Shown one piece after another: positions 2,053-16,436 of a DNA stretch of 64,000 nt. The position numbers were made by a program, and so were the translations under genes. Position 1 is the first letter of the stretch. Every line of letters starts with the position of its first letter. Source of the stretch: a virus; IMG/VR virus record IMGVR_UViG_3300007504_000006, positions 1-64,000 of that record; one strand, 5' to 3'. A model generated the notes under the pieces. The model was given only the letters and a program-made list of their open reading frames with translations, ran no database searches and was not told the DNA's origin.

Positions 2053-2979
2053 ATGAAACTGATTACAGGTAACGCAAATACAAAACTTGCTACTGATATT
2101 GCTAATATTGCCGGCGTTGAATTATGCGAAACTCTAGTAACTAGATTCGCCGACAATGAAATATGGGTAGAAATAAAAGACAACATTCGTGGTGAAGATG
2201 TTTTCCTCATCCAAAGCACATGCAATCCCGCCAACGACAACTTAATGGAATTATTAATAATGGTTGATGCTTGTAAAAGAGCAAGTGCAGGTCGAATTAC
2301 GGCTGTAATACCTTATTATGGTTATGCTAGACAAGATAGAAAACCAGCAGGACGATCACCTATTAGTGCCAAACTTGTTGCTAATATGTTAGAAGCGGCA
2401 GGGGTAGATCGTATGCTAACTATGGATTTACATGCAGGTCAAATTCAAGGTTTTTTTGATATTCCTGTAGATAATCTATATGCCCAACCATTATTTGTTG
2501 AAGACTTATTATCAAGCCCAATGATTAGTGCTGGTAATGCAATAATAGTTTCACCAGATGCAGGCGGAGTTCCCAGAGCAAGAGCAATAGCAAAAAAATT
2601 AAATCTAGATATTGCAATTATAGATAAAAGACGAGATAGGGCTAATGAGTCCGAAGCAATGAACGTCATAGGAGACGTAAAGGGGAAGCAATGCATCATC
2701 GTCGACGACATAATAGATACAGGTGGGACATTAGTAAAAGCCGCACAGGCATTAATAAGCGAAGGCGCCGAAGAAGTGGAAGCATATATAACACACGGTG
2801 TATTAAGCAAAGGCGGAGCGAAGAGGATGGAAAAATCAGCTCTGAATAGATTAGTAATAACTGATACTATTCCTGCACCTGAAAATAAAGTACTAAAAGT
2901 CATTTCAGTTGCGAATATATTTACTGAAGCAATTCGCAGAGTACATCATGATGAATCAATATCAGTATTATTTGAATAA
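2053..2979 (+). CDS. prs: Ribose-phosphate pyrophosphokinase (PRPP synthetase)
   Basis: A full-length 308-residue class I PRPP synthetase, close to the roughly 315 residues of bacterial enzymes. It makes phosphoribosyl pyrophosphate from ribose-5-phosphate and ATP for nucleotide and NAD synthesis. Visible motifs include the N-terminal ATP-site stretch RFADNEIW (about residue 31), IPYYGYARQDRKPAGR (about 87-102), the catalytic loop DKRRDRANES (about 190) and the PRPP-binding loop VDDIIDTGGTL (about 213-223). All key residues appear intact, so it is probably active. The stop overlaps the next ATG (TAATG). In the phage it would act as an auxiliary metabolic gene raising PRPP supply; I see no nicotinamide phosphoribosyltransferase in this window. 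Confidence 0.97.
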   Translation: MKLITGNANTKLATDIANIAGVELCETLVTRFADNEIWVEIKDNIRGEDVFLIQSTCNPANDNLMELLIMVDACKRASAGRITAVIPYYGYARQDRKPAGRSPISAKLVANMLEAAGVDRMLTMDLHAGQIQGFFDIPVDNLYAQPLFVEDLLSSPMISAGNAIIVSPDAGGVPRARAIAKKLNLDIAIIDKRRDRANESEAMNVIGDVKGKQCIIVDDIIDTGGTLVKAAQALISEGAEEVEAYITHGVLSKGGAKRMEKSALNRLVITDTIPAPENKVLKVISVANIFTEAIRRVHHDESISVLFE

Positions 2980-3485
2980 TGGTTATAGATAATTTTTTAG
3001 ATATCGAATCTTTTCGTGAGATTCAAACAATATTATTAAGTGAAGAACCCCACTGGCACTACCAAGATTTTTTGGGTGTATCGACGGACCAAACTAATCA
3101 GTTTTATTTTAGCCATGGCTTCTATGAAGGGTACACATGGATATCACCATTGGCCAGAGTATTAGAGCCATTATTAGAAAAAATTAAACCTATTTGTATT
3201 CTTAATATAAGGGCAAATCTTGTAACTAGAACAAGCGAAATAATAGAAGCCAGTCTTCATTCAGATCTAAAAGGTGTTATATCAGATGAACATAAATTAA
3301 AACAATGGACTACATCAGTATTTTATATAAACGATACTAAAGGTTATACAAAACTTTCAGATGGAACGAAGATTGAATGCAAAGCAAATAGATTATTAAC
3401 TATGTCAAGTGATACTGAACATCTAGGAGCAACATGCACAGATCAAAAACGAAGGGTAATTATAAATTTAAATTATTTTAAATAG
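2979..3485 (+). CDS. 2-oxoglutarate/Fe(II) oxygenase-like protein
   Basis: A 168-residue protein with the layout of a small 2OG-Fe(II) dioxygenase of the prolyl-hydroxylase type. The iron site is suggested by H-x-D in LHSDL (about residue 93), and the distal His and 2OG-binding Arg by TEHLGATCTDQKRRVIINLN near the C-terminus. The segment TTSVFYIND between them matches the core beta-strand that usually precedes the Gly turn. It overlaps prs by one base. The substrate is unknown; phage members of this superfamily may modify proteins or nucleobases. Three more proteins of the superfamily, probably of a different subfamily, occur at 7359, 38064 and 38812. Confidence 0.7.
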   Translation: MVIDNFLDIESFREIQTILLSEEPHWHYQDFLGVSTDQTNQFYFSHGFYEGYTWISPLARVLEPLLEKIKPICILNIRANLVTRTSEIIEASLHSDLKGVISDEHKLKQWTTSVFYINDTKGYTKLSDGTKIECKANRLLTMSSDTEHLGATCTDQKRRVIINLNYFK

Positions 3486-5280: not shown

Positions 5281-6206
5281 ACAAACTATTCGCAATCCTA
5301 CTAGGGGCCTCCCTAGTAGGTTGTGCCTCAACGGCACACAAGCAACCAGTTTTAATATCAGACGATTCTAAACCTAGTTGGGTTGAAGAATACGAATTAG
5401 AAGATTCCACTCACCTGTTTTTTACAGGTATATCCACAAAATATGCAGAAGAACGCAAGGCACTCAAAGACGCCAAATATGATGCTTTGTCTAAATTTTT
5501 AGACTATTGTGGTTTGCATACTAAATTGCATGAAAAGTATATTTCACAAGTAGATGGAAATACTGCAAATGTATTAACAGCCACAAATAAAATAGAAACA
5601 CGCCTAGAAACAAATTCTGAAGCACAAGTAGGACAATTCCGTATTGTTAAAAAATACATGGAAGTATATAATGGTACTAGAGGTAAATTCTATAAAATGT
5701 ATGTATTTGCTAGTGTACCAAAAACTGAAGTTGCTTTAGTTAAAGCATGGAAAAAAGAAAACGATCTACAAAAAATTACCAAACTTAAATCGATTAATAG
5801 TGAGCAATCTGAAATAATAGTACAAACAAGTGAAGAGCTCAATGCGGTACAAAAACAGCTCGAACAATTAACATTTTTAAAAGAACGTGTTTCTGTACTA
5901 TCTATTGAAAATACCGAGCTCATAACTGAAAACAAACAGTTAAAGGAAACATTTCATAAGGACAAGGAAACAATAGAACATCTAACTGTTAGAGTAGATA
6001 AATTAACAAAAGTTAATAAAATATTAAAAGATGATAATGACGATGTTCAAGTTATAAGAAAAAATCTTATAGATGCTTTAAAAACTGCTGAATACATGAC
6101 ACATGAAGCAGAGCATTGGAGAGAAAAATATTATAATAAAGGGCCAGGGGAAGCTCTTGCAGAATTGCTTGGTGTGAAAGAAAGGCCTGTAATAGTTATA
6201 GATTAA
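5277..6206 (+). CDS. Lipoprotein with LPP20-like head and long coiled coil, second of a tandem pair
   Basis: A 309-residue protein with a lipoprotein signal (LFAILLGASLVGC, lipidated Cys at about residue 16) and the same opening pattern as its upstream neighbour: KPSWVEEYELEDSTHLFFTG, followed by a helix with KDAKYDALSKF. It differs in carrying a coiled coil over about residues 165-275 and a short C-terminal domain (GPGEALAELLGV). It overlaps the upstream stop by four bases (ATGA) and ends convergently against the leftward operon with a four-base overlap. A coiled-coil lipoprotein could span the periplasm, as o-spanins do, but no partner i-spanin is visible here. Confidence 0.75.
   Translation: MNKLFAILLGASLVGCASTAHKQPVLISDDSKPSWVEEYELEDSTHLFFTGISTKYAEERKALKDAKYDALSKFLDYCGLHTKLHEKYISQVDGNTANVLTATNKIETRLETNSEAQVGQFRIVKKYMEVYNGTRGKFYKMYVFASVPKTEVALVKAWKKENDLQKITKLKSINSEQSEIIVQTSEELNAVQKQLEQLTFLKERVSVLSIENTELITENKQLKETFHKDKETIEHLTVRVDKLTKVNKILKDDNDDVQVIRKNLIDALKTAEYMTHEAEHWREKYYNKGPGEALAELLGVKERPVIVID
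5297..5320 (+). other. Intragenic 10-bp perfect hairpin in the signal-peptide region
   Basis: CCTACTAGGG (5297-5306) and CCCTAGTAGG (5311-5320) are perfect complements around a four-base GCCT loop, beginning 20 bases after the start codon of the second lipoprotein gene. It is not followed by a T run, so it is not a normal terminator. It may modulate translation or mRNA stability of the second cistron relative to the first. Confidence 0.5.
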
Positions 6207-6487
6207 ACTTCAGTTAATGCTAATTTATATTGTTTACCAGTTTTTTTATTAATTACAAATATATCATTCTCGCCTTCTTGGATCACCCAAGAACCTTTAG
6301 TCCCGTCTACATCATTTCCTGAACGATTAGGTTTATCATTAGACATAATCACGTCAGCAGTACTAAGATCGTTGCACGTTATATCTTCAAACTCAACATT
6401 GTCACCTGGACCTAATCCTTGGGCTACTTGACCTACAACATTATCATCAAAAACTCTTGTAGTTCCAATATAAAGTTTCTTTGCCAT
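6203..6487 (-). CDS. Small fibre-tip-like protein, paralogue of a large fibre C-terminus
   Basis: A 94-residue protein, the last gene of the leftward block. From about residue 35 on it is nearly the same as the last 65 residues of the 1,089-residue fibre at 13167-16436: both contain the order ITCND, STAD, IMSNDKP, RSGN, VDGTKGSWV, QEGE and a closing INxxxGKxYK strand. The first 34 residues (MAKKLYIGTTRVFDD) are unique and resemble a fibre entry strand. It has its own late-like box upstream (6506-6512). It may be a separate tip protein, a trimer cap or a residue of fibre-tip exchange. Confidence 0.75.
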   Translation of the reverse strand: MAKKLYIGTTRVFDDNVVGQVAQGLGPGDNVEFEDITCNDLSTADVIMSNDKPNRSGNDVDGTKGSWVIQEGENDIFVINKKTGKQYKLALTEV

Positions 6488-6505: not shown

Positions 6506-6512
6506 TATTTAG
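6506..6512 (-). promoter_or_regulatory. Late-like promoter box CTAAATA on the minus strand
   Basis: Reading leftward, CTAAATA lies about 20 bases upstream of the ATG of the small fibre-tip-like gene and overlaps the stop of the preceding permease-like gene. The core matches the CTAAATA form reported for late promoters of marine T4-like phages. Confidence 0.4.
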
Positions 6513-7390
6513 CGAATAAGAAGAAAAGAAACTGCAATAATAACTGAGCAAAGAAAAACAACAAAAGTATAATATGTTACTAAGGGAGTTTTAAAATACA
6601 TTTTACCTATAATGAAACATTTATGAACAGGACTTAGCATATAGCCTGCATAATCTATAGCGAAAAACATAGGAAGGTATTGAACACCGAATATACTTGT
6701 AAGAATAGCAGTAAATGCCGCAAACCTTGCAGAAGATCCTAATAAAAAACTACCAGCAAATCCTATCCAAGCACCTGTTACAAGTGACCAATCATTATTT
6801 TCAATATATGCTTTAATTTCATTTGTATAAGATTTAATATAATTACCTAAAACAATAACCAAAAATAATGCTATTAATAGTTTCCAATTAACCCATTCTA
6901 CTGTAACTTCTTTTTGTTTAGGATTAATCCAGATTACATCTTGTTCTTTTAAAAAATAAAATACTAAAAACAATGGAAGAACTATAGCAATCATTGCAAG
7001 AGGCCCCATCACATACATAAATTCTACATATGTTAACCCTAAAACTGCCATAGGTATAATAACAGATTTTTCAAACGGAGACCACAAGTAATAATGATGT
7101 GTACTAAGATAATCTATAATGCCATACCATTTGCGTCTAGAATCTTTAGGTGCCATTGTATCTAAAATACCAGCAGATACAGATACCCTTCCAGGTATAG
7201 GTAGCACACCACATAAAGCACTAACTATAACAACAAATAATCTATTTGATTTTATATATTTGCTTAGAAGATTTAGCACAGGATATATATACCCATTGCG
7301 TTGCACATACGCAGATGTAACCATAATGCCTGCAAGGTACAATACGTACCATTGATTATTAAATATTATTTCTAGCATCAGTTTTTTCAT
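6509..7390 (-). CDS. Polytopic membrane protein, permease-like (possibly DUF401-like)
   Basis: A protein of about 293 residues starting MKKLMLEIIFNNQW at 7390. Longer in-frame starts exist up to 7462 but would lie deep inside the preceding gene; the Met at 7378 is also possible. I count eight to ten hydrophobic helices, with a re-entrant-looking motif CGVLPIPGRVSVSAGILD (about residues 60-77) that recalls the DUF401 family of ion-transporter-like permeases. A matching half-repeat may lie near SFLLGSSARFAAFTAIL. A full-size permease is unusual within a phage tail block. Substrate unknown. The family assignment is from memory of the motif, not a search. Confidence 0.6.
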   Translation of the reverse strand: MKKLMLEIIFNNQWYVLYLAGIMVTSAYVQRNGYIYPVLNLLSKYIKSNRLFVVIVSALCGVLPIPGRVSVSAGILDTMAPKDSRRKWYGIIDYLSTHHYYLWSPFEKSVIIPMAVLGLTYVEFMYVMGPLAMIAIVLPLFLVFYFLKEQDVIWINPKQKEVTVEWVNWKLLIALFLVIVLGNYIKSYTNEIKAYIENNDWSLVTGAWIGFAGSFLLGSSARFAAFTAILTSIFGVQYLPMFFAIDYAGYMLSPVHKCFIIGKMYFKTPLVTYYTFVVFLCSVIIAVSFLLIR

Positions 7391-8087
7391 GTGGGATATG
7401 GGTGTATTCCCACTTAAATTTCTCGGCGTCCCATTCGCTTTCAGTTCCTTTATTAACAACAATATTCATTACAAATGTTAATCTTTTTTCATTTTCCTGG
7501 AATGGATATACTTGATGCAATAAATCAAAATCATAAATCATACCAAAATTTTTCTGTGGTATTATATTCATTAATTCTTGATCTTTTATTATAACATGAC
7601 ATCCCTTATAAGATGCATTATTGGTGATCTCTTGGGTTTTCATATTAAAAAATCGTGATTTCAAATTTCGACCGAATGAGGTTTCTAAAGCAGAATCAAA
7701 ATCATTAAGAAAATATATAAAATTAAAATCATTTGCTTCGTGTATGTGAAGAGGATTAAATTCATTTTTCCTCATTACATTTAGCCATGATGATCGAATT
7801 AGTACATCATTCTTTTCAATTTTTTTAAACTTGCCCATTCTATTATTCAAATCGTGTTCTATATGAGCATGTATAATTTGATTAAACGTGTCTAAATAAA
7901 ATTCATCTAATACCCCATGATTAATAATATATTCATTTTCTATTTCTCCTACCAACATATTATTAGCCTTGGCACCACTTTGATTTATCATAGAAAGAAG
8001 AGAATTACTAAAATTATCAGTAAACGAATCGGTCGCTTCAAAAAAAGTTAAAATTTTATCTTGAAAAGTTTTATGAAATATTTTCAT
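7359..8087 (-). CDS. 2-oxoglutarate/Fe(II) oxygenase-like protein
   Basis: A 242-residue protein whose C-terminal half has the 2OG-Fe(II) oxygenase pattern also seen at 38064 and 38812: a Trp strand followed by His residues (NPLHIHEANDF, about residues 124-134), a Gly/Phe strand (FNFIYFLND) and a distal His with an Arg (LHQVYPFQENEKRLTFVMNI, about 195-214). The N-terminal half is less conserved. It overlaps the upstream U32/methyltransferase gene by four bases, suggesting coupled expression. The substrate is unknown; a protein or glycan associated with the fibres is an inference from position. Confidence 0.65.
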   Translation of the reverse strand: MKIFHKTFQDKILTFFEATDSFTDNFSNSLLSMINQSGAKANNMLVGEIENEYIINHGVLDEFYLDTFNQIIHAHIEHDLNNRMGKFKKIEKNDVLIRSSWLNVMRKNEFNPLHIHEANDFNFIYFLNDFDSALETSFGRNLKSRFFNMKTQEITNNASYKGCHVIIKDQELMNIIPQKNFGMIYDFDLLHQVYPFQENEKRLTFVMNIVVNKGTESEWDAEKFKWEYTHIPHEKTDARNNI

Positions 8088-9727
8088 TTTTTAATTACCG
8101 TAACGTATATACCATTCCACCATTGTGTAGGATTTTCTATTGTGTTTAATACTTTTTTATGAAAAATAAGCTCATGATCTATTTGTTCTAATCCTTTCAT
8201 TGCTCCTATAACAACATTAGGAAAATTTGCGTCATCAAAAATACAAATACATTCGTCTGCAAAACAATCTTTATAATACATTATTGCTTTTTCTATTGTT
8301 TCACTTTCGTGTGGCCCATCGTAAAAAAACAAATCAATATTTTTAATGTCTTTTAAATTTGTATCAAATAAATCACATTCATATGCTGTTACAGAATTAT
8401 TCCCCTTAAACTGTTTTACATTTTTAATAAATTCTTCTTTAGAATTAGGAGGTAAAATTAATTCTTGTGTTAATGGTTGTAAATCTTCTTTCCATGTATC
8501 TACACAAAATGCATTAATATTATTATCTTTCAATACTGCACATGTGCTTAATCCTAAATACGATCCAATTTCTAAATAATTTGTAGAAATACTACCTAAA
8601 CTATTAAGTAAATTAACAATTTTTTGAGAAGATAATCCGTCAATCTCTACTATGATATCCTTATTAACAGAATCTACCAATTCTTTTGTTACATATTTTA
8701 TTTTATCATTACCTTTTATTACACTTTTTTTGTCATACACTTTATCACAATAATGACAATCCCAACATTCAAACTTACAAGTTTTTATTTTTTCACGCCA
8801 TATGTTTATAGGAGCATCTACTAAATTTGTTTCATCTATAAATTCATTAAATGTATCAAATAATATTTCCTTATCTTCGGCATAATTTTTTATAATATGC
8901 ATGGTTTCATTTAATCTAGAAGTATTTTCTCTTCCATGCATTTTAATAACATCAACATATTCTAATAATTCATCCCAATCTTCTTTCCATGGAGGAAAGT
9001 TAGCGGATTTTAAAGGAACAGCCATATCTTCTTGGTCCCATTTATCACACGATACTCTAGACATAGGATCATTAAAATACTGAGCTTCGTTTGTTCTAGA
9101 ATTATTAAATTCATAATGTTCATCCATCATAGGACAATTACCTATGCATCCTTCGTTTGCTAACAATGATAACTTGACTCCAGCATGTTCTTTAGCACGT
9201 TTCATATCTTTTAATTTGTCATGGTCTCGCATTAGATCACGATCTAAATTAACATAGTTAAATCCTGCTTCACCTAAAGCAACTACTTCTCGTGGTTCGG
9301 TTACATTCCGTAATATTGTGTTTTTAATTTCTAATTCAGGAAATGCTGATTGTATTTGTTTTGTTGCAACCCAATGAGTATGTGGAATCGTTGCACTTCG
9401 AACAACTCCGGTATCATAAAGTTGTTTAAAATTTTGTAAAAATAAATCTAAATTATTTTGTGATGGTCGAACTAAAGTATTATTAAATGTTGCAGAAAGT
9501 TGAATACCTGTATCTTTTGATACGTTTATAGCATTGTCTAATATAGATAAATGATCTGGTGGACCATTAAACACATCGCCCATTGCATCTTGAACAAAAG
9601 GTGGCATTCTACTAGTAAAATAAAGATCATATATATAATCTTTATAGGTATGTAAAAAGCCTAAAAAATCATTAAATTGTGGTTCCGTCAATTTTGGATT
9701 GATCGGTATGCTGAATATTTTCTTCAT
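8084..9727 (-). CDS. Fusion of U32-peptidase-like Fe-S domain and SAM methyltransferase
   Basis: A 547-residue two-domain protein. Residues 1 to about 345 resemble U32-family proteins (UbiU/UbiV and related hydroxylation factors): a barrel-like series of strands, then ANEGCIGNCPMMDEHYEF (about 195) and further Cys in VSCDKW and CKFECWDCHYC, which together could hold a 4Fe-4S cluster. Residues about 380-547 form a class I SAM-dependent methyltransferase of the Methyltransf_24 type, with the Gly-rich loop NYLEIGSYLGLST, acidic FCVDTW, and LFFYDGPHES. The start at 9727 is needed for the first barrel strand and overlaps the preceding gene by 56 bases. Neither substrate can be read. The fusion is not one I know. 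Confidence 0.7.
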   Translation of the reverse strand: MKKIFSIPINPKLTEPQFNDFLGFLHTYKDYIYDLYFTSRMPPFVQDAMGDVFNGPPDHLSILDNAINVSKDTGIQLSATFNNTLVRPSQNNLDLFLQNFKQLYDTGVVRSATIPHTHWVATKQIQSAFPELEIKNTILRNVTEPREVVALGEAGFNYVNLDRDLMRDHDKLKDMKRAKEHAGVKLSLLANEGCIGNCPMMDEHYEFNNSRTNEAQYFNDPMSRVSCDKWDQEDMAVPLKSANFPPWKEDWDELLEYVDVIKMHGRENTSRLNETMHIIKNYAEDKEILFDTFNEFIDETNLVDAPINIWREKIKTCKFECWDCHYCDKVYDKKSVIKGNDKIKYVTKELVDSVNKDIIVEIDGLSSQKIVNLLNSLGSISTNYLEIGSYLGLSTCAVLKDNNINAFCVDTWKEDLQPLTQELILPPNSKEEFIKNVKQFKGNNSVTAYECDLFDTNLKDIKNIDLFFYDGPHESETIEKAIMYYKDCFADECICIFDDANFPNVVIGAMKGLEQIDHELIFHKKVLNTIENPTQWWNGIYVTVIKK

Positions 9728-11015
9728 CTAATTTTATTTCAAATAATTTTTTACTATCAGTTAATAGTGGCATTTGTAATCCTTCGAGTGCTTTTTCAGA
9801 ATTAATCTGGCCTTCAACTTGTTTATTAATCTGTCCTATTGTATTAGTTAACAAACCAGAAAAATGTAATGCACCTCTTAATGTTTCTAATTGATCTTCT
9901 TCTGGCATTAATAAGATAGAATCCATATTACCCGAACCTACCCGACCATATGCTATAATATCCATTGCCGCCTGCTTTTGCATTCTAGCCATCCAATATT
10001 TTCGTTCTTCTGTGTCGTCTTCTTTTAAATATTCGTCTAAGTTTTTTTCTTTTGTTTTTTCTAAAAGCTCTAAATATGTTCTAAGTTCGCGTTCACATTG
10101 ACTCATTTTTCGTTTAAAAACAGTTATGTCGTACATTAAGTCTTCGAGCTTAATAACCATCAATTCTTTTTCTAACTGATCCGGTTCTTTTTTAATGTCT
10201 CGTTCAATTATTTTTACACGAACTTCTGCTTCTCGTAAATTTCTTACAATAGATTTATATGCATGATATCGTGTTTCTAACTCCATAAATGATTGATGAA
10301 TTTTTTTGTAAGGAGTTATTCCTGTTTTTTGCACAAAATTAATAGAAGAATAATTAGACTGCCCATTATCAAATTGAAGGGCTGTTTCTAATACTTTTTC
10401 TTCTTCGGGCGAAAAACTTAAATGGTCTCTTACCCAAGTGTCTACTTTTATATTTGTTACATCGCTACTTACAATATCTGTTTTATTGTGTAGCATATCT
10501 GGTAAATTATTTGTTTGTTCCATAAGTCGTCCAAAACTATTATTAAAAATTTTATTATAAATTGAAAATAAATCTTCTCGATCTTTATCTGAACTACCGT
10601 TATTAATACATCCTAACGGAAATGCAGTATTTTTATTAAATCTTTCTTCGTCCCATAATAAACAATTTTTAAAATTATCTTTATTATTAATAATTTTTCT
10701 TTTGTTAAAAACACAACCAAATTTGCCTAATGTTTTAGGAAAAAATATACAAAAATTTTCTATTGTATCATGTGTTTTAATATTAAAATATTCTTGTATA
10801 AATTCTTTAAATGTTAAGCCAGTTTTAAATTTTATGTCATCTTCTCTTACTAGTTCATTATTTACGTATTTTAAATATATGTTTTCTACATTTTCTAACG
10901 TCGCATATCCAGGATCTTTGCAACAAGGATTTTTTAAACATGATTGGCATGGTTGGGGTGTGCATTTAGAGTTTTTTTGAAGTTCGTATAATTTTTCTGT
11001 TACTTTTTTAAACAT
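9672..11015 (-). CDS. YkgJ-like Cys cluster protein with coiled coil
   Basis: A 447-residue protein. The N-terminal 130 residues hold a Cys-rich motif resembling the YkgJ (zinc/iron-chelating) family: CQSCLKNPCCKDPGYATL (about residues 24-41), followed by FCIFFPKTLGKFGCVFNKR and a later NCLLWDE, spacing that fits the CxxC, CC, C, C pattern. Residues about 230-330 form a long charged coiled coil, followed by a helical tail. It starts one base into the previous stop and its end overlaps the U32-fusion gene. It probably binds a metal; whether it is a virion part or a chaperone for its Cys-containing neighbour is unclear. Confidence 0.55.
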   Translation of the reverse strand: MFKKVTEKLYELQKNSKCTPQPCQSCLKNPCCKDPGYATLENVENIYLKYVNNELVREDDIKFKTGLTFKEFIQEYFNIKTHDTIENFCIFFPKTLGKFGCVFNKRKIINNKDNFKNCLLWDEERFNKNTAFPLGCINNGSSDKDREDLFSIYNKIFNNSFGRLMEQTNNLPDMLHNKTDIVSSDVTNIKVDTWVRDHLSFSPEEEKVLETALQFDNGQSNYSSINFVQKTGITPYKKIHQSFMELETRYHAYKSIVRNLREAEVRVKIIERDIKKEPDQLEKELMVIKLEDLMYDITVFKRKMSQCERELRTYLELLEKTKEKNLDEYLKEDDTEERKYWMARMQKQAAMDIIAYGRVGSGNMDSILLMPEEDQLETLRGALHFSGLLTNTIGQINKQVEGQINSEKALEGLQMPLLTDSKKLFEIKLDEENIQHTDQSKIDGTTI

Positions 11016-12025
11016 TAAAAGTTTAATTTGTTGCCTATATAAGGATTAATAGGATCAGGTAACCATTTTGCCTTTGGATCATCTTCTGTTGTTTTTTCAT
11101 TTGTATCTGTATTAAAGAAGGCCATTCGGTTTCCTTTTCTATTATAGTCTATTTCACCATCTTCTTTTATACCTGGGTCTACCCGTTTTAATGTTTCTGC
11201 CTGTTCGGTAGGCATCATTATACCAAAATAATCTTCATATACAATATTTAAATCCCATATTGTTGTGCATACTTCTACTTTTTTTAATATTTTTTGAGAC
11301 TTAACTAGCATAGTAGAAAGTCTATCTTGATATTCTTCTGCTTTTTCTAATATTTTATTTGACAAAGTTGTTTTATCAAAACTTCTTTCTGTTGCAATAT
11401 AATCTAAAAACGGAGTTACGTGAGCAGGATCATCTTCACCATACGTTAAAAATTCTCTTGCTTCATGTTTTTGTATTTCCCAAGTTGCCGCTTCTAATTC
11501 AGATACATTTTTAATAAATTTTAATTTCTTACTATATTCATTTTCTATAATTTCTTTTGCATATTTTTTCATAAAAGATAATGTAAAATCTTTCATCTCT
11601 TGAGTAAAGTCTATTGCTTGTTTCCAATGTTCATCAGGTATAGCAGGAGTCCAATCCCAAATTACTCCATCACCAGTTTTAAGAACTTTAACAGTATCTC
11701 GTATTTCGGCAAAATGTACAGTACCAAAATAGAATTCATCTTTTGTTATTTCTTCAAACGATCTACCTAGTTGTGGTCTAATTGTTTCTAAAAGAGAATC
11801 ACTTATTTCTACCGCAGATAAACCTAATAAATTATATTTCGACTCACATTTAAAATTTTTATCTTGAAATTCACCACCTGTAATATATGCCTTAATATCT
11901 TCTTCAGGAATTATAATATATCTTAATTTTGCGTCAGGAACTGTCGGACCCGTTACTGGAGTTGGTTCAGTTACAACTGGATCAAAATCCATTGGTGTTG
12001 TTTTTGTCAGGTTATGTGCTGGCAT
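11015..12025 (-). CDS. Hypothetical protein, possible tail-fibre-assembly-like
   Basis: A 336-residue protein with a Pro/Thr-rich N-terminus (PVVTEPTPVTGPTVPDAK). The middle (about residues 180-250) contains a helical segment with EAREFLTYGEDDP, HVTPFLDYIATE and a following KILEKAEEYQDR helix, which recalls the C-terminal region of phage tail-fibre assembly chaperones. It directly follows the fibre genes with a one-base overlap at each end, where fibre chaperones are often encoded. No signal peptide or transmembrane segment is visible. The chaperone idea is inference from position and weak similarity. Confidence 0.5.
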   Translation of the reverse strand: MPAHNLTKTTPMDFDPVVTEPTPVTGPTVPDAKLRYIIIPEEDIKAYITGGEFQDKNFKCESKYNLLGLSAVEISDSLLETIRPQLGRSFEEITKDEFYFGTVHFAEIRDTVKVLKTGDGVIWDWTPAIPDEHWKQAIDFTQEMKDFTLSFMKKYAKEIIENEYSKKLKFIKNVSELEAATWEIQKHEAREFLTYGEDDPAHVTPFLDYIATERSFDKTTLSNKILEKAEEYQDRLSTMLVKSQKILKKVEVCTTIWDLNIVYEDYFGIMMPTEQAETLKRVDPGIKEDGEIDYNRKGNRMAFFNTDTNEKTTEDDPKAKWLPDPINPYIGNKLNF

Positions 12026-13170
12026 TAACTTACCCCTACGTCACAAACAGATGCGGCACCTGTACTACAAAATCCTGATGATTGTCCATAATGTCCTTTA
12101 GGCATACATGCGGCTCCCATTGTTGTTTGAGCATCAGTCGAATATACATATTTTACAGTCCAGTTATTTTGTTGGCCATTATAATCGCCCATTGTATAAC
12201 CCCAATCTTGGCCATCTTCTTGATTTTCTTCACCATTAGAATGATTTTTACCTGGAGACGATAAAACTGCTCCATTACTATCAGCAAACTTATCTTGTCC
12301 GCTTGTAACATTAGTACCAGTACCTACATAATGATGCCCGTGTTTAGAGGATATTGCTTTACATTGTCCATCTGTTCCATAGGTCCAAGTACCGCCTGAT
12401 CCCATTGATCTATTAGACCAATTATAAGAATATTTGTTATTTCCCGCATTCATTAACCAACCCACATCTTCACCTTGGCAACCTGTACCTAATCCTGATG
12501 ACGAAGCAGTAGCGGCAGTATACATAACTTCTGAAGCAAAATGTAAAGAATGAGAAGTTGTACCGTGTGTACCTCCTGCCCATAATCCTTCTTGTGTTTT
12601 TATTCCGGAAGCAGTAGCACAATCATGAACACTAGTACTAAAATTCCAGCCACCTACGTGATTGCCATAACCACTAGTACCATAACTAATTCCTTCAGTT
12701 AACGGATTGTAACCTACGTATCCGTATGAAACACCACTAGAAGAAAAACCACCTGTTGTAGTTATCTTTCTTGTTTGTCCATTTGCGAGACTGTAACTAG
12801 ATAAATTTGTACCGGCAGTAGTATGACCATTATTTTCTAGATATCCATTATGATCGCTATATGTGCCTGACAAATAAGATCCTTCTCTATCTAATTGTTC
12901 CCCACAATAAAGGGTAGTATCTGTTTGATGCCAGGTTTTATTTACAGCCCGCCATGCATTAGATCCTTTATAGCCTGCCGCCAAATAACCATGTGTATAT
13001 ATAGATCTATATCTCCAACCTGATGCTAATGCAGACCCCGGACTACCTGGATATTGCCAGTAAGCACCTTCAGCGGCATCACCTGCCATTAAAAGGCCAC
13101 CTCTTGCTTCTTCTGATGTAGCGGGTATTCCTTGTTCGGTTCTTCCTCTTGATCGAGAATAAATTGTCAT
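12025..13170 (-). CDS. Gly/Ser/Tyr-rich fibre or adhesin protein
   Basis: A 381-residue protein with composition typical of surface-exposed fibre tips: very rich in Gly, Ser, Tyr, Thr, Trp, His and Asn, with no long hydrophobic segment. Repeated short patterns such as GYGNHVGGWNF, SHSLHFASE and WTYGTDGQ suggest a beta-rich fold with aromatic surfaces. Several Cys (YCGEQLD, HDCATAS, TGCQGED, AACMPKG, GFCSTGAASVCD) could form disulfides or bind metal. It overlaps the preceding fibre gene by four bases (ATGA). In style it resembles the proteins at 62004 and 63564. Host-surface binding is an inference. Confidence 0.6.
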   Translation of the reverse strand: MTIYSRSRGRTEQGIPATSEEARGGLLMAGDAAEGAYWQYPGSPGSALASGWRYRSIYTHGYLAAGYKGSNAWRAVNKTWHQTDTTLYCGEQLDREGSYLSGTYSDHNGYLENNGHTTAGTNLSSYSLANGQTRKITTTGGFSSSGVSYGYVGYNPLTEGISYGTSGYGNHVGGWNFSTSVHDCATASGIKTQEGLWAGGTHGTTSHSLHFASEVMYTAATASSSGLGTGCQGEDVGWLMNAGNNKYSYNWSNRSMGSGGTWTYGTDGQCKAISSKHGHHYVGTGTNVTSGQDKFADSNGAVLSSPGKNHSNGEENQEDGQDWGYTMGDYNGQQNNWTVKYVYSTDAQTTMGAACMPKGHYGQSSGFCSTGAASVCDVGVS

Positions 13171-16100
13171 TGTACTTCCTCTAGCATTATTTTATATCGC
13201 TTCCCATTATTTCTATTTATTAAGTACATACTTTCCTCACCTTCTTGCATAACCCACGAACCTTTAGTTCCGTCTACTTCGTTACCAGATCTATCTGGTT
13301 TATCATTACTCATTATTAAGTCAGCAGTACTAATGTCATTGCATGTTATGTCTTGGCAACTAAGATCACCTGTAGTTGTTATATCGCCTGCATACATGTG
13401 AAAATGCCCATCTCTGTCAATTTTAAATTTATCTGCAACATTTCCTAAATTATGTTGTGTACCAAATACTAAATCCATACTATCTGCTAAACTAATAGAA
13501 CGAATTGCTTTTATGTATGCTCCCACTCCGGCATCATGTTTAAACTGCATTTGAACAGTTCTTTCAGCAGTATCATCTCCGGTGTTTTCCATTATTATAT
13601 CTAAATCTGTAGTTTTTGTTATATTAACATCACCACCATCAACATCTAACAGTACTCCTGGTGTTGCTGTTCCTATACCTACTCTATTATTAACAGCATC
13701 AATATGAAACGTAGGTGAATCCCAGGAACTATCTACATATGTTTTAACTGCTTTTTGGGATGGAACAAGAGTATCACTATTTGCCGCAAATGTTCCGTCT
13801 GTATCTATTGCTGATCCGGTAATACTTGTATTAACTGTGACCGTATCCATTATTGGTGAATTAATAGTAGGACTTGTTAATGTTTTAAGTGTTAATGTTT
13901 GGGTATCATCAAGGGTTACAACCGTTGCATCAATTGCAACTGTTAATGTATTAACTGCTCCGCTTGTATCGATACCTGTACCACCTGCTATTGTTAATGT
14001 TTCAGAATTTAATAAAATTTCTAACGATCCAGAATCACTATAAACAGGAAGGGCACTTGCAGTTAATGCTTGTTCAGGTATAGTATTCGAAACAAAATGT
14101 GGGTTACCATTTTTAAAATAAAATATACCGCCTGTTGTTGGAGCAGTTGGAGAAGTAATATTAGCATAATCTGTTTCTAAATGTATACCTGTTTGAGTAG
14201 TTAATATACCACCTGCAGGAATATATAAAGGTCTATATGCACCATCTTGTACAATTAAAGGATCCGAAGGATTTGATTCTTGTTGGTTTATATGAAGTAA
14301 TGCTGTCGGAGCACTTATACCTATACCTACACGACCTTCTCCATAATATGTAGATCCTGCAACTGAACCTATGTTCCAACCAGATCGCATATCCTTTATT
14401 TTAAACTTTGCAGAAGAATTATCCCAAACTAACGACCAATCATTATTTCCTATACCTAATGTACCAGTTTCAACATCGGCTAAATTAGTTAAATTTTCTG
14501 CTGTTATATTTGCCAAATATCCTGCACTAGCATGGTTTCCCCATCCGTATGCAACAACACCTTGTTGAGCATCTTGGCTTACTTGTGGATCTAATATTAT
14601 TGTTCCTGTAGATATTATAGTAGAACCGCCACCTTGAAGTTGTAACCCTGTGCCAACCGATACTCCGGTTAATGGTGTTACCCATTGTAATAAACTACCG
14701 GTTGTACTTAAAAACTGGCCTGCTGTTCCACTATTGCTTATATTCAATTCTTGTATACCGACGTTTGCCGCAGGTAAATTTAATTTTCCACTAGTAACTG
14801 TTAATGTTACATCTTCACCTGCTGTAATTTGAGCCGCAGTTCCTAACGTTATTTTTTCTACTTCTAATCCTTGGGAGGTTGCAGTTAAGGTAATTGGATT
14901 TCCTCCACCAAACCTAATACTTGATGGTACTTGTAAAGTTCCTGCATCATCTGTTAAATTTATAGATCCTAAATCTAATGTATTTGTGTATACAGTATCC
15001 CATATTTTAGAACTAGATCCTATATCATATGTAGACGTAACAGAAGGTAAAACATGTTCAGTAAGGGATCCTACTGCAACAGACCAAGTTAATTTTTTAT
15101 CTTCCACAGTATTGTCTGTTACTATACTAACACCCGATCCTGCAACAAATTCTAATTCCCTTGTAGAATCTATAGAAATAGTAGGTTGACCACTAACAGA
15201 TACTGTAGTAAGATAGTCTCCAAATCCTACTTTTAATACACCCGGACTTGTTTCTGTCATAGTAAATCCTGATGCAACATTAAATTCTACACTAGAAGCA
15301 TTTGTAAATGTTTGGTTATTATATTTAAAATCTGCTGATGAAGGAGATATCCAAATAAAACCTCCTGAAGATCCTAATCCTAATACTTGCCCTGTTGTTC
15401 CGGATCCACCTATATCCATTTCTGGTATGCCAACAGCATTTGGTGATATTGAACTAGCAGTAGAAAATGTTGCTCCCATAAATCTTACTTTTACAAGAGC
15501 ATTATATGCCGGAGGACTTGTAAATGTTAATGTTGTTCCTGTTACGGAATAAGCATTGTCTGCTCCAGGTGTTTGAATTACACCATCTACTGTTACTAAT
15601 AATTGATTAGGTGTACTTGCTAATTGTGATAACGTATATGTCGTTGTTGAAGCATCTCCATAAAAAGTATCTATGTAATATGTGCTTGCTGACAATTTTG
15701 CAGGAGTTATACTACCATCTTGCACAATGGTTTGTACTGTATCCATATTAAGAAAAGTAACAGATATTTCTAAATTGACTGGTATATTTTCTGGAAATAC
15801 AAGTTTTGCCGGACTAGTACCTACAATAGTATAGGTTGATGGTGCTTGATATAAACTATCAACATGAACAAGAACATCAACAGGCTGAGTAGGAACTCTT
15901 GATAAATCAAATTCTTTTGTATTCCCATCAGCAGTAAAAGTGTCAACTGATAAATTTGCTTGAGTAGTCGAAGCAATAGTTATTTTTCCATTTGTAGGAT
16001 CGGTTGTTAATTGAATGCCAGCACCAGATACCATTTCAAGATCACCTGATTCAGGTATTGTTAAATCTGTTTGTCCTGAAACTTTAATAGTATCTAAAAG

Positions 16101-16436
16101 AGTGCCTTCAGTAGGAACAAATTTTGTTAAAACACTATCCCATTTAAGTAAATTACCATCTTGTAATCCTGATTCGTCTATATCACTTAAATCTAATAAT
16201 GCTCCGCCTCCTAAAGATCCCCAAATTGATTGAGTAGAATTATTAGGATCTTTTGAATATCCTTCAAACTTACCTGTTGTTGCGTTATATCGTATAACAC
16301 CTTCAGAAGGAGTAGTTGGGCGTTCAGCAGTTGAACCAGTAGGTATAGATAACCCTTCTACTCCAGTAAATGTAGCATTTCCCTTAATAGTTGGGTTTGT
16401 TGCAAATGTTTTTCCTGTTACTACTGTTCTACTCAT
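13167..16436 (-). CDS. Large modular tail fibre protein, 1,089 aa
   Basis: A long Thr/Ser/Gly-rich beta-repeat protein. Early modules have the phage-fibre pattern of a strand, then VDSLYQAPSTYTIVG or VDGVIQTPGADNAYSV, then a hydrophobic strand ending in VRFMG. Later repeats contain SGQ, a strand and LEFVAGSGVSI. The segment LVPSQKAVKTYVDSSWDS (about residue 895) is a typical knob or trimerisation entry seen in marine phage fibres. The last 65 residues are duplicated as the separate protein at 6203-6487. It overlaps the next gene by four bases. A virion fibre role is well supported by architecture; the receptor is unknown. Confidence 0.85.
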   Translation of the reverse strand: MSRTVVTGKTFATNPTIKGNATFTGVEGLSIPTGSTAERPTTPSEGVIRYNATTGKFEGYSKDPNNSTQSIWGSLGGGALLDLSDIDESGLQDGNLLKWDSVLTKFVPTEGTLLDTIKVSGQTDLTIPESGDLEMVSGAGIQLTTDPTNGKITIASTTQANLSVDTFTADGNTKEFDLSRVPTQPVDVLVHVDSLYQAPSTYTIVGTSPAKLVFPENIPVNLEISVTFLNMDTVQTIVQDGSITPAKLSASTYYIDTFYGDASTTTYTLSQLASTPNQLLVTVDGVIQTPGADNAYSVTGTTLTFTSPPAYNALVKVRFMGATFSTASSISPNAVGIPEMDIGGSGTTGQVLGLGSSGGFIWISPSSADFKYNNQTFTNASSVEFNVASGFTMTETSPGVLKVGFGDYLTTVSVSGQPTISIDSTRELEFVAGSGVSIVTDNTVEDKKLTWSVAVGSLTEHVLPSVTSTYDIGSSSKIWDTVYTNTLDLGSINLTDDAGTLQVPSSIRFGGGNPITLTATSQGLEVEKITLGTAAQITAGEDVTLTVTSGKLNLPAANVGIQELNISNSGTAGQFLSTTGSLLQWVTPLTGVSVGTGLQLQGGGSTIISTGTIILDPQVSQDAQQGVVAYGWGNHASAGYLANITAENLTNLADVETGTLGIGNNDWSLVWDNSSAKFKIKDMRSGWNIGSVAGSTYYGEGRVGIGISAPTALLHINQQESNPSDPLIVQDGAYRPLYIPAGGILTTQTGIHLETDYANITSPTAPTTGGIFYFKNGNPHFVSNTIPEQALTASALPVYSDSGSLEILLNSETLTIAGGTGIDTSGAVNTLTVAIDATVVTLDDTQTLTLKTLTSPTINSPIMDTVTVNTSITGSAIDTDGTFAANSDTLVPSQKAVKTYVDSSWDSPTFHIDAVNNRVGIGTATPGVLLDVDGGDVNITKTTDLDIIMENTGDDTAERTVQMQFKHDAGVGAYIKAIRSISLADSMDLVFGTQHNLGNVADKFKIDRDGHFHMYAGDITTTGDLSCQDITCNDISTADLIMSNDKPDRSGNEVDGTKGSWVMQEGEESMYLINRNNGKRYKIMLEEVQ

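Follow-up and report, generated by a model that had tools for sequence, protein, structure and literature searches.

Which reaction, and on which substrate, does a phage perform with a protein that joins a U32-like half to a methyltransferase and is encoded among tail fibre genes? The question is raised by one open reading frame in a 64,000-nucleotide stretch of viral DNA (positions 1 to 64,000 of record IMGVR_UViG_3300007504_000006, hereafter the window). A preliminary description of this locus had read the gene as a U32-like Fe-S domain fused to a SAM methyltransferase and had placed it, with three neighbours, in a small modification module inherited with the fibres. The frame is real and its coordinates are exact; it lies on the minus strand, the plus strand of the same interval being full of stops. 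The observation of a fusion gene in a fibre block is thus confirmed, and the interpretation built on it is partly supported. In PHROGs the whole protein corresponds to phrog_1458 and its N-terminal half to phrog_36869, both families of unassigned function. The start of the gene overlaps the upstream phrog_1409 gene by 56 nt, an arrangement likewise present in P-HM2. The features discussed below are collected in the table.

Table. Features of the fusion gene and its surroundings (positions in the window)
Feature	Coordinates	Strand	Evidence
U32-like/O-methyltransferase fusion gene, 547 aa	8084..9727	minus	phrog_1458; cyanophage T4-GC 354
Predicted U32-like TIM-barrel domain with Cys tail, residues 1-345	8693..9727	minus	predicted model and 5d88 match
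First conserved Cys/His group: C194, C198, H204, C227	9047..9148	minus	invariant in 64 homologues
Second Cys group: C317-x3-C321-x2-C324-x2-C327	8747..8779	minus	conservation in 64 homologues
Class I SAM O-methyltransferase domain, COMT/TrmR-like, residues 351-547	8087..8677	minus	PF13578 and fold
Putative divalent-metal ligands D470, D498, D499	8231..8320	minus	invariant in 32 methyltransferase halves
Upstream partner, 447 aa, Cys-rich N-terminus and phrog_1409 C half	9672..11015	minus	PHROGs
phrog_1604 partner (T4-GC 352 family)	11015..12025	minus	PHROGs
phrog_1417 Gly/Ser/Thr/Tyr-rich protein (T4-GC 351, annotated sericin-like)	12025..13170	minus	PHROGs
Tail fibre protein of the block	13167..16436	minus	phrog_892 match at C-terminus
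2OG-Fe(II) oxygenase	7359..8087	minus	PF13759, E 7.1e-8, above cut-off
DUF401 membrane protein (permease-like)	6509..7462	minus	PF04165, E 2.1e-9

The two halves of the protein

The Methyltransf_24-type domain that had been proposed for the same frame is borne out by Pfam: PF13578 matches residues 385-499 with an E-value of 9.5e-10 and 39.7 bits against a cut-off of 26.3. The Gly-rich motif and the acidic residues are present, G388, G392, D470, D498 and D499 being invariant and E386 nearly so. The fold is that of the COMT-type O-methyltransferases, with Z-scores up to 16.9 (TomG), and the small-molecule O-methyltransferases COMT, TomG and MycF are all close to it. With a profile of 32 methyltransferase halves, the best PDB sequence match is TrmR (YrrM), a distant one (E 1.7e-4); D470, D498 and D499 align with the D and DN positions of TrmR, which we take to be metal ligands.

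For the N-terminal half, the claimed U32-like nature finds support in fold and in a bridging protein, but not in a direct sequence match. A Pfam search gave nothing above threshold for this half, PF01136 (peptidase family U32) included, and PF01136 is likewise without a match in five stand-alone bacterial relatives. A profile of the N half against six genuine U32 proteins, drawn from the same bacterial genome set, gave a weak alignment (E 0.013, score 26.9; maximum of 40 shuffles 19.8). The structural model from a 64-sequence alignment (pLDDT 86.5, pTM 0.88) has the U32 protein Mk0906 (5d88) as its best PDB match in Foldseek (E 2.6e-8), and VIA-align superposes 220 of 247 residues on it with Z 16.5 and rmsd 3.0, the next, unrelated barrels reaching 12.7. 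In the full-length model the first Cys region is poorly ordered (pLDDT below 50 at residues 193-236). The bridge is provided by ORF039 of Escherichia phage EcS1, which itself matches PF01136 (E 6.1e-11) and aligns with the fusion-family profile over about 300 columns, both Cys regions included (E 1.3e-4; score 39.1 compared with at most 26.6 in 40 column shuffles). Because the predicted fold is nearest to 5d88 and ORF039 matches PF01136 while aligning with the fusion family, the N half is here termed U32-like and taken as a divergent branch not covered by PF01136.

EcS1 ORF039 (L322:6482-7654) and its close relative in Providencia phage PSTCR6 (L323:5494-6657) lie beside putative thymidylate synthase/dCMP hydroxymethylase genes, the former also by an arabinose-5-phosphate isomerase and a nucleotidyltransferase-like gene, and this type of protein may take part in DNA base hypermodification.

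The cysteine motif from which the preliminary description started corresponds to residues 190-207, and the later Cys pairs it had noticed are the second group of the table, which proved to be conserved. All 64 aligned homologues have C194, C198, C227, C317 and C321, and conservation is at least 90% at C324 and at C327; judged by this alignment, the cysteines are not there by chance. The published four-Cys U32 motif (CX6CX15CX3/4C or the UbiU/UbiV variants; PMC6747719) is absent: there are seven conserved cysteines (194, 198, 227, 317, 321, 324 and 327) with other spacing, enough for at least one putative Fe-S cluster. A radical SAM reading of the CxxxCxxC at 317-324 was rejected, PF04055 giving no match, and matches to HI_0552 (E 0.011), NrfH (E 0.12) and Cas-phi (E 0.026) were set aside as below cut-offs or of chance strength.

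The departure from the known U32 spacings could also mean that catalysis has been lost in the N half, which would then be a structural or metal-binding scaffold bringing the methyltransferase to the fibre, with methylation as the only reaction. However, the N half is the more conserved of the two (63% mean column identity over 64 sequences, against 44% over 32 sequences for the methyltransferase half), and bacteria possess stand-alone N domains without a fused methyltransferase; we regard such a scaffold as quite improbable.

That the two halves work together is suggested by the ways in which they are combined. The loci of phrog_1409-type and DUF401-type relatives (best 80 per scan) hold 143 ORFs with the N domain and 143 with the methyltransferase domain, both being present in 123. 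Among the 20 ORFs with the N domain only, 16 are directly followed by a separate methyltransferase gene; of the remaining four, two are cut off where their contigs end, L195 (522 aa) has a methyltransferase that is sub-threshold or absent, and L207 has an unlabelled 187-aa ORF further along. Split, neighbouring N-domain and methyltransferase genes occur in several phage lineages. Since fused, split and bacterial stand-alone forms all exist, the family supports two putatively cooperating activities.

Occurrence and gene neighbourhood

Many phages of aquatic origin carry the fusion beside their fibre genes. By tblastn the fusion was found in 123 of 50,697 phage records, all of them cyanophages by name; it is annotated as a hypothetical protein among the matches listed, and it is T4-GC 354 in P-SSM4, Syn19 and P-HM2. 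In viral contigs the full-length protein retrieved 44 loci, and an alignment of the N domain at least 585 confirmed relatives among 599 candidate stretches, the best 80 of which were used. Among the listings of our literature searches there was no description of such a fusion, or of fibre modification in phages.

Bacterial and archaeal genomes (84,980) yielded eight loci of the family. Two of these (L052 and L053) lie on short contigs in the company of phage-like genes, among them phrog_1604-like and phrog_1409-like genes in both and fibre-like genes in L052. The other six (L054-L059) carry a stand-alone N domain of about 330-370 aa with no fused methyltransferase. The stand-alone gene is rare (6 of 398 genomes of one order, 2 of 155 of one class), and five of the six genomes with it also possess a canonical U32 gene. 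In two Campylobacterota assemblies it adjoins an outer-membrane efflux protein, an ABC exporter and an HlyD protein (Pfam-backed for L057). Elsewhere it neighbours DUF6445 and a radical SAM/SPASM protein (L056), lies near a Trp halogenase and kinase-like genes (L156), or shares a region with genes for a GLUG-repeat protein and a sulfotransferase (L158); the housekeeping genes and the CRISPR type III-looking set, identified by eye, at L059 are uninformative. These contexts fit a tailoring of secreted proteins or peptides, in few cases and in assemblies that may be misbinned. One further assembly (G329), from the order to which the Sulfurimonas locus belongs, carries two diverged N-domain relatives of about 540-550 aa each in tandem (L155, 665-2323 and 2338-3954).

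The fibre block named by the preliminary description is real, with phrog_892 and other tail families beside the fusion, and in phages the gene order around the fusion is strongly conserved. Neighbours were counted in 110 non-duplicate viral loci, what remained of 138 focal-gene sources after setting aside 16 duplicates or window copies, eight cellular-assembly loci, three named-phage loci and the window itself; a locus was scored only where its flank measured 3 kb or more (93 upstream, 91 downstream), and the counts lean to closer relatives, the best 80 of 585, 484 and 549 per scan having been used. Upstream of the fusion, phrog_1409 is found in 90 of 93 loci, phrog_1417 in 81 and phrog_1604 in 77; downstream, DUF401 is found in 70 of 91. 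Dereplication at 90% identity (62 loci) leaves phrog_1409 upstream in 50 of 55 and, downstream in 54 scored loci, DUF401 in 41, phrog_7084 in 24, a 2OG oxygenase (any of several seeds) in 17 and a Trp halogenase in four. The reverse count agrees: a U32-like gene lies downstream in all 78 phrog_1409 loci and upstream in 58 of 63 DUF401 loci, each set being the best 80 of a longer list. In the phage records, T4-GC 352 (phrog_1604) and T4-GC 353 (phrog_1409) each match 123, equal to the fusion in number and in organism breakdown.

The three neighbours once thought to complete the module fared unequally. The 2OG oxygenase and the permease-like DUF401 protein (for which an internal ATG would give a shorter form of 293 aa) were correctly recognised. 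The gene called YkgJ-like is rich in cysteines at its N-terminus, but neither Pfam nor NCBIfam identifies a domain in it, and phrog_1409 accounts for its C half. As to co-occurrence, the permease is frequent, but the window's 2OG profile family follows the fusion in only 25 of 91 loci (the window's own 2OG protein as query retrieved three close relatives only) and the YkgJ-like N-terminus precedes it in 2 of 93, so YkgJ was rejected as a core partner. A fixed set of four genes (U32-methyltransferase, YkgJ, 2OG oxygenase and permease) is not conserved together.

Several other features of this region deserve mention. After the permease lies a 94-aa ORF (6203-6487) that is 70% identical to part of the fibre of the block, and the two share a match to the C-terminal end of phrog_892, as though a second copy of the fibre tip had been placed where the module ends. 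The phrog_274 gene (T4-GC 100; window 2979-3485, L046:13689-14198) carries the annotation 'DNA endonuclease V (denV)' and to the eye resembles a 2OG oxygenase (HxD...H...R). In Pfam the window copy has a sub-threshold PF13640 match (E 0.028) and the P-SSM4 copy has no match; the denV label is doubtful, not disproved. Positions 2053-2979 hold an auxiliary metabolic gene, which encodes a ribose-phosphate pyrophosphokinase (Pribosyltran_N, E 2e-54).

Possible chemistry and substrate

We consider it probable that the protein is a U32-like Fe-S hydroxylase fused to an O-methyltransferase. Among proteins of known structure, the methyltransferase half is nearest in sequence to TrmR, an enzyme that methylates a hydroxyl made by U32 proteins, and for this reason hydroxylation followed by O-methylation is the likeliest and most economical chemistry by analogy. 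The fusion would then be a two-step tailoring enzyme, made together with the tail fibres: the U32-like barrel, with a Cys-bound Fe-S centre, would hydroxylate the substrate as TrhP, RlhA and UbiUV do, and the C-terminal, presumably metal-dependent domain would methylate the new hydroxyl, as its TrmR and COMT relatives suggest. Co-occurrence points to a product of the fibre block as the likeliest substrate; in this scheme phrog_1409 and phrog_1604 would be the enzyme's constant helpers, and the DUF401 membrane protein would have an auxiliary part. This full statement, fibre-linked target and both helpers included, we put forward tentatively, its chances being a little short of even; fibre tailoring is favoured over other targets for a substrate that is putative. 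Against it may be held that synteny is conserved for many genes of T4-like phages anyway, that the DUF401 membrane protein is left unexplained, that TrmR acts on tRNA and not on protein, and that the fibre-like GC351 matches more phage records than the fusion does (147 versus 123).

The target could, alternatively, be RNA. TrmR, the best PDB sequence match of the methyltransferase half, methylates ho5U34, the hydroxyl of which is made with the help of U32 proteins of the same operon (PMC6599085), and a fusion that mimicked this route from U32 protein (TrhP) to TrmR would, during infection, give the tRNA of host or phage a methoxylated nucleoside, for instance mo5U. TrhP and TrmR act sequentially, and yceA (TrhO), another tRNA hydroxylase gene, is reported to be fused with trmR in Phytophthora and a diatom (PMC6599085). 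However, our fusion sits in a fibre block and no tRNA gene was found within the 64 kb window, in bacteria the stand-alone relatives have genes for secretion or for protein/peptide modification as neighbours, and most genomes with such a relative possess a canonical U32 gene besides; we therefore regard RNA modification as unlikely.

Somewhat unlikely, too, is that the fusion acts on a quinone, a surface sugar, an aromatic acid or some other small molecule, lipid or glycan, which DUF401 would move, the fibre site then being only a convenient operon. UbiUV is a precedent for a small substrate (PMC6747719), COMT, TomG and MycF are close in fold to the methyltransferase half, and DUF401 is a frequent downstream neighbour; moreover, all nine phage records with DUF401 carry the fusion, even where about 58 kb separate the two genes, which lie far from each other in six of the nine. 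Yet these nine are the only ones among the 123 fusion records in which DUF401 is detectable, so transport by DUF401 is not needed everywhere, and it is phrog_1409 and phrog_1604, not DUF401, that track the fusion most strictly.

Returning to fibre tailoring, other enzymes are found on the fibre side of cyanophage genomes. The fibre genes of syn9 and Syn10 are followed by two halogenase genes, whose coordinates give lengths of 507 and 530 aa. Next to the pair in syn9 come phrog_7084, a number of 2OG oxygenases, a JmjC protein and DUF6445; no U32-like gene was found in these two records. VirX1 is listed as a 531-aa protein of Syn10 (PMC8407142) and, judged by length alone, fits CPUG_00131 of that phage. 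The halogenase of P-SSM2 and of HTVC008M departs from this arrangement and sits among other genes. Related islands of the fusion type carry tryptophan halogenases, and the window's own phage has one at record positions 69492-71207 (L327:7493-9208, minus), a lone gene on the opposite strand, surrounded by a second series of fibre-like genes. The family phrog_7084 (L160:10547-11335, L132:6976-7737 and relatives; no Pfam match) follows the syn9 halogenases and the U32-like/methyltransferase gene alike. Cyanophage 2OG oxygenases were explained by Sullivan et al. 2010 through 2OG/nitrogen signalling or DNA repair (PMC3037559); their fibre-side location suggests that another role may be considered.

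A broader idea, which we hold to be rather doubtful, is that T4-like phages possess a fibre-tailoring island of redox enzymes (the U32-like/O-methyltransferase fusion, VirX1-type halogenases and 2OG oxygenases, with phrog_7084) that would decorate receptor-binding fibres post-translationally, for instance with methoxy groups or halogens on aromatic side chains. To our knowledge the natural substrate of the viral halogenase VirX1 is unknown, and the fusion offers a place to look for it: if the idea were true, VirX1 would act naturally on a fibre protein, and many of the 2OG oxygenases of cyanophages would serve to modify virions and not only as 2OG or DNA-repair factors. More generally, an abundant hypothetical phage protein (at least 585 of 599 candidate stretches in viral contigs) receives a mechanism-level hypothesis, the U32 hydroxylase fold would gain a branch that has an O-methyltransferase of its own and cysteines in a new pattern, and post-translational fibre modification by phages becomes testable.

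Comparison with known systems

A close parallel is the pair TrhP (YegQ/YrrN/YrrO) and TrmR (YrrM), which converts tRNA ho5U to mo5U and likewise consists of a U32-type protein and a COMT-like SAM O-methyltransferase. There, however, the two are separate genes, whereas the fusion is one chain, without a PF01136 match, with other Cys spacing and in a fibre-block context; where TrmR has D..D-N, the fusion has D470, D498 and D499. UbiU and UbiV are U32 proteins with Cys-bound [4Fe-4S] clusters that serve O2-independent quinone synthesis (PMC6747719), and the N half of the fusion shares with them a U32-like predicted fold. Their spacings are given as CX6CX16CX38C and CXnCX12CX3C (PMC6747719), from which C194-x3-C198-x28-C227 and the second group of the fusion differ. 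Mk0906 resembles the N half in fold, but at 12% identity and with no fused methyltransferase. EcS1 ORF039 aligns to most of the N half, yet it matches PF01136, stands without a methyltransferase and lies among nucleotide-metabolism genes instead of fibre genes. The VirX1-type flavin halogenase islands of Syn10 and syn9, finally, differ in their halogenation chemistry and in having no U32-like gene in those records, but they are placed as the fusion is: after fibre genes, together with phrog_7084 and 2OG oxygenases.
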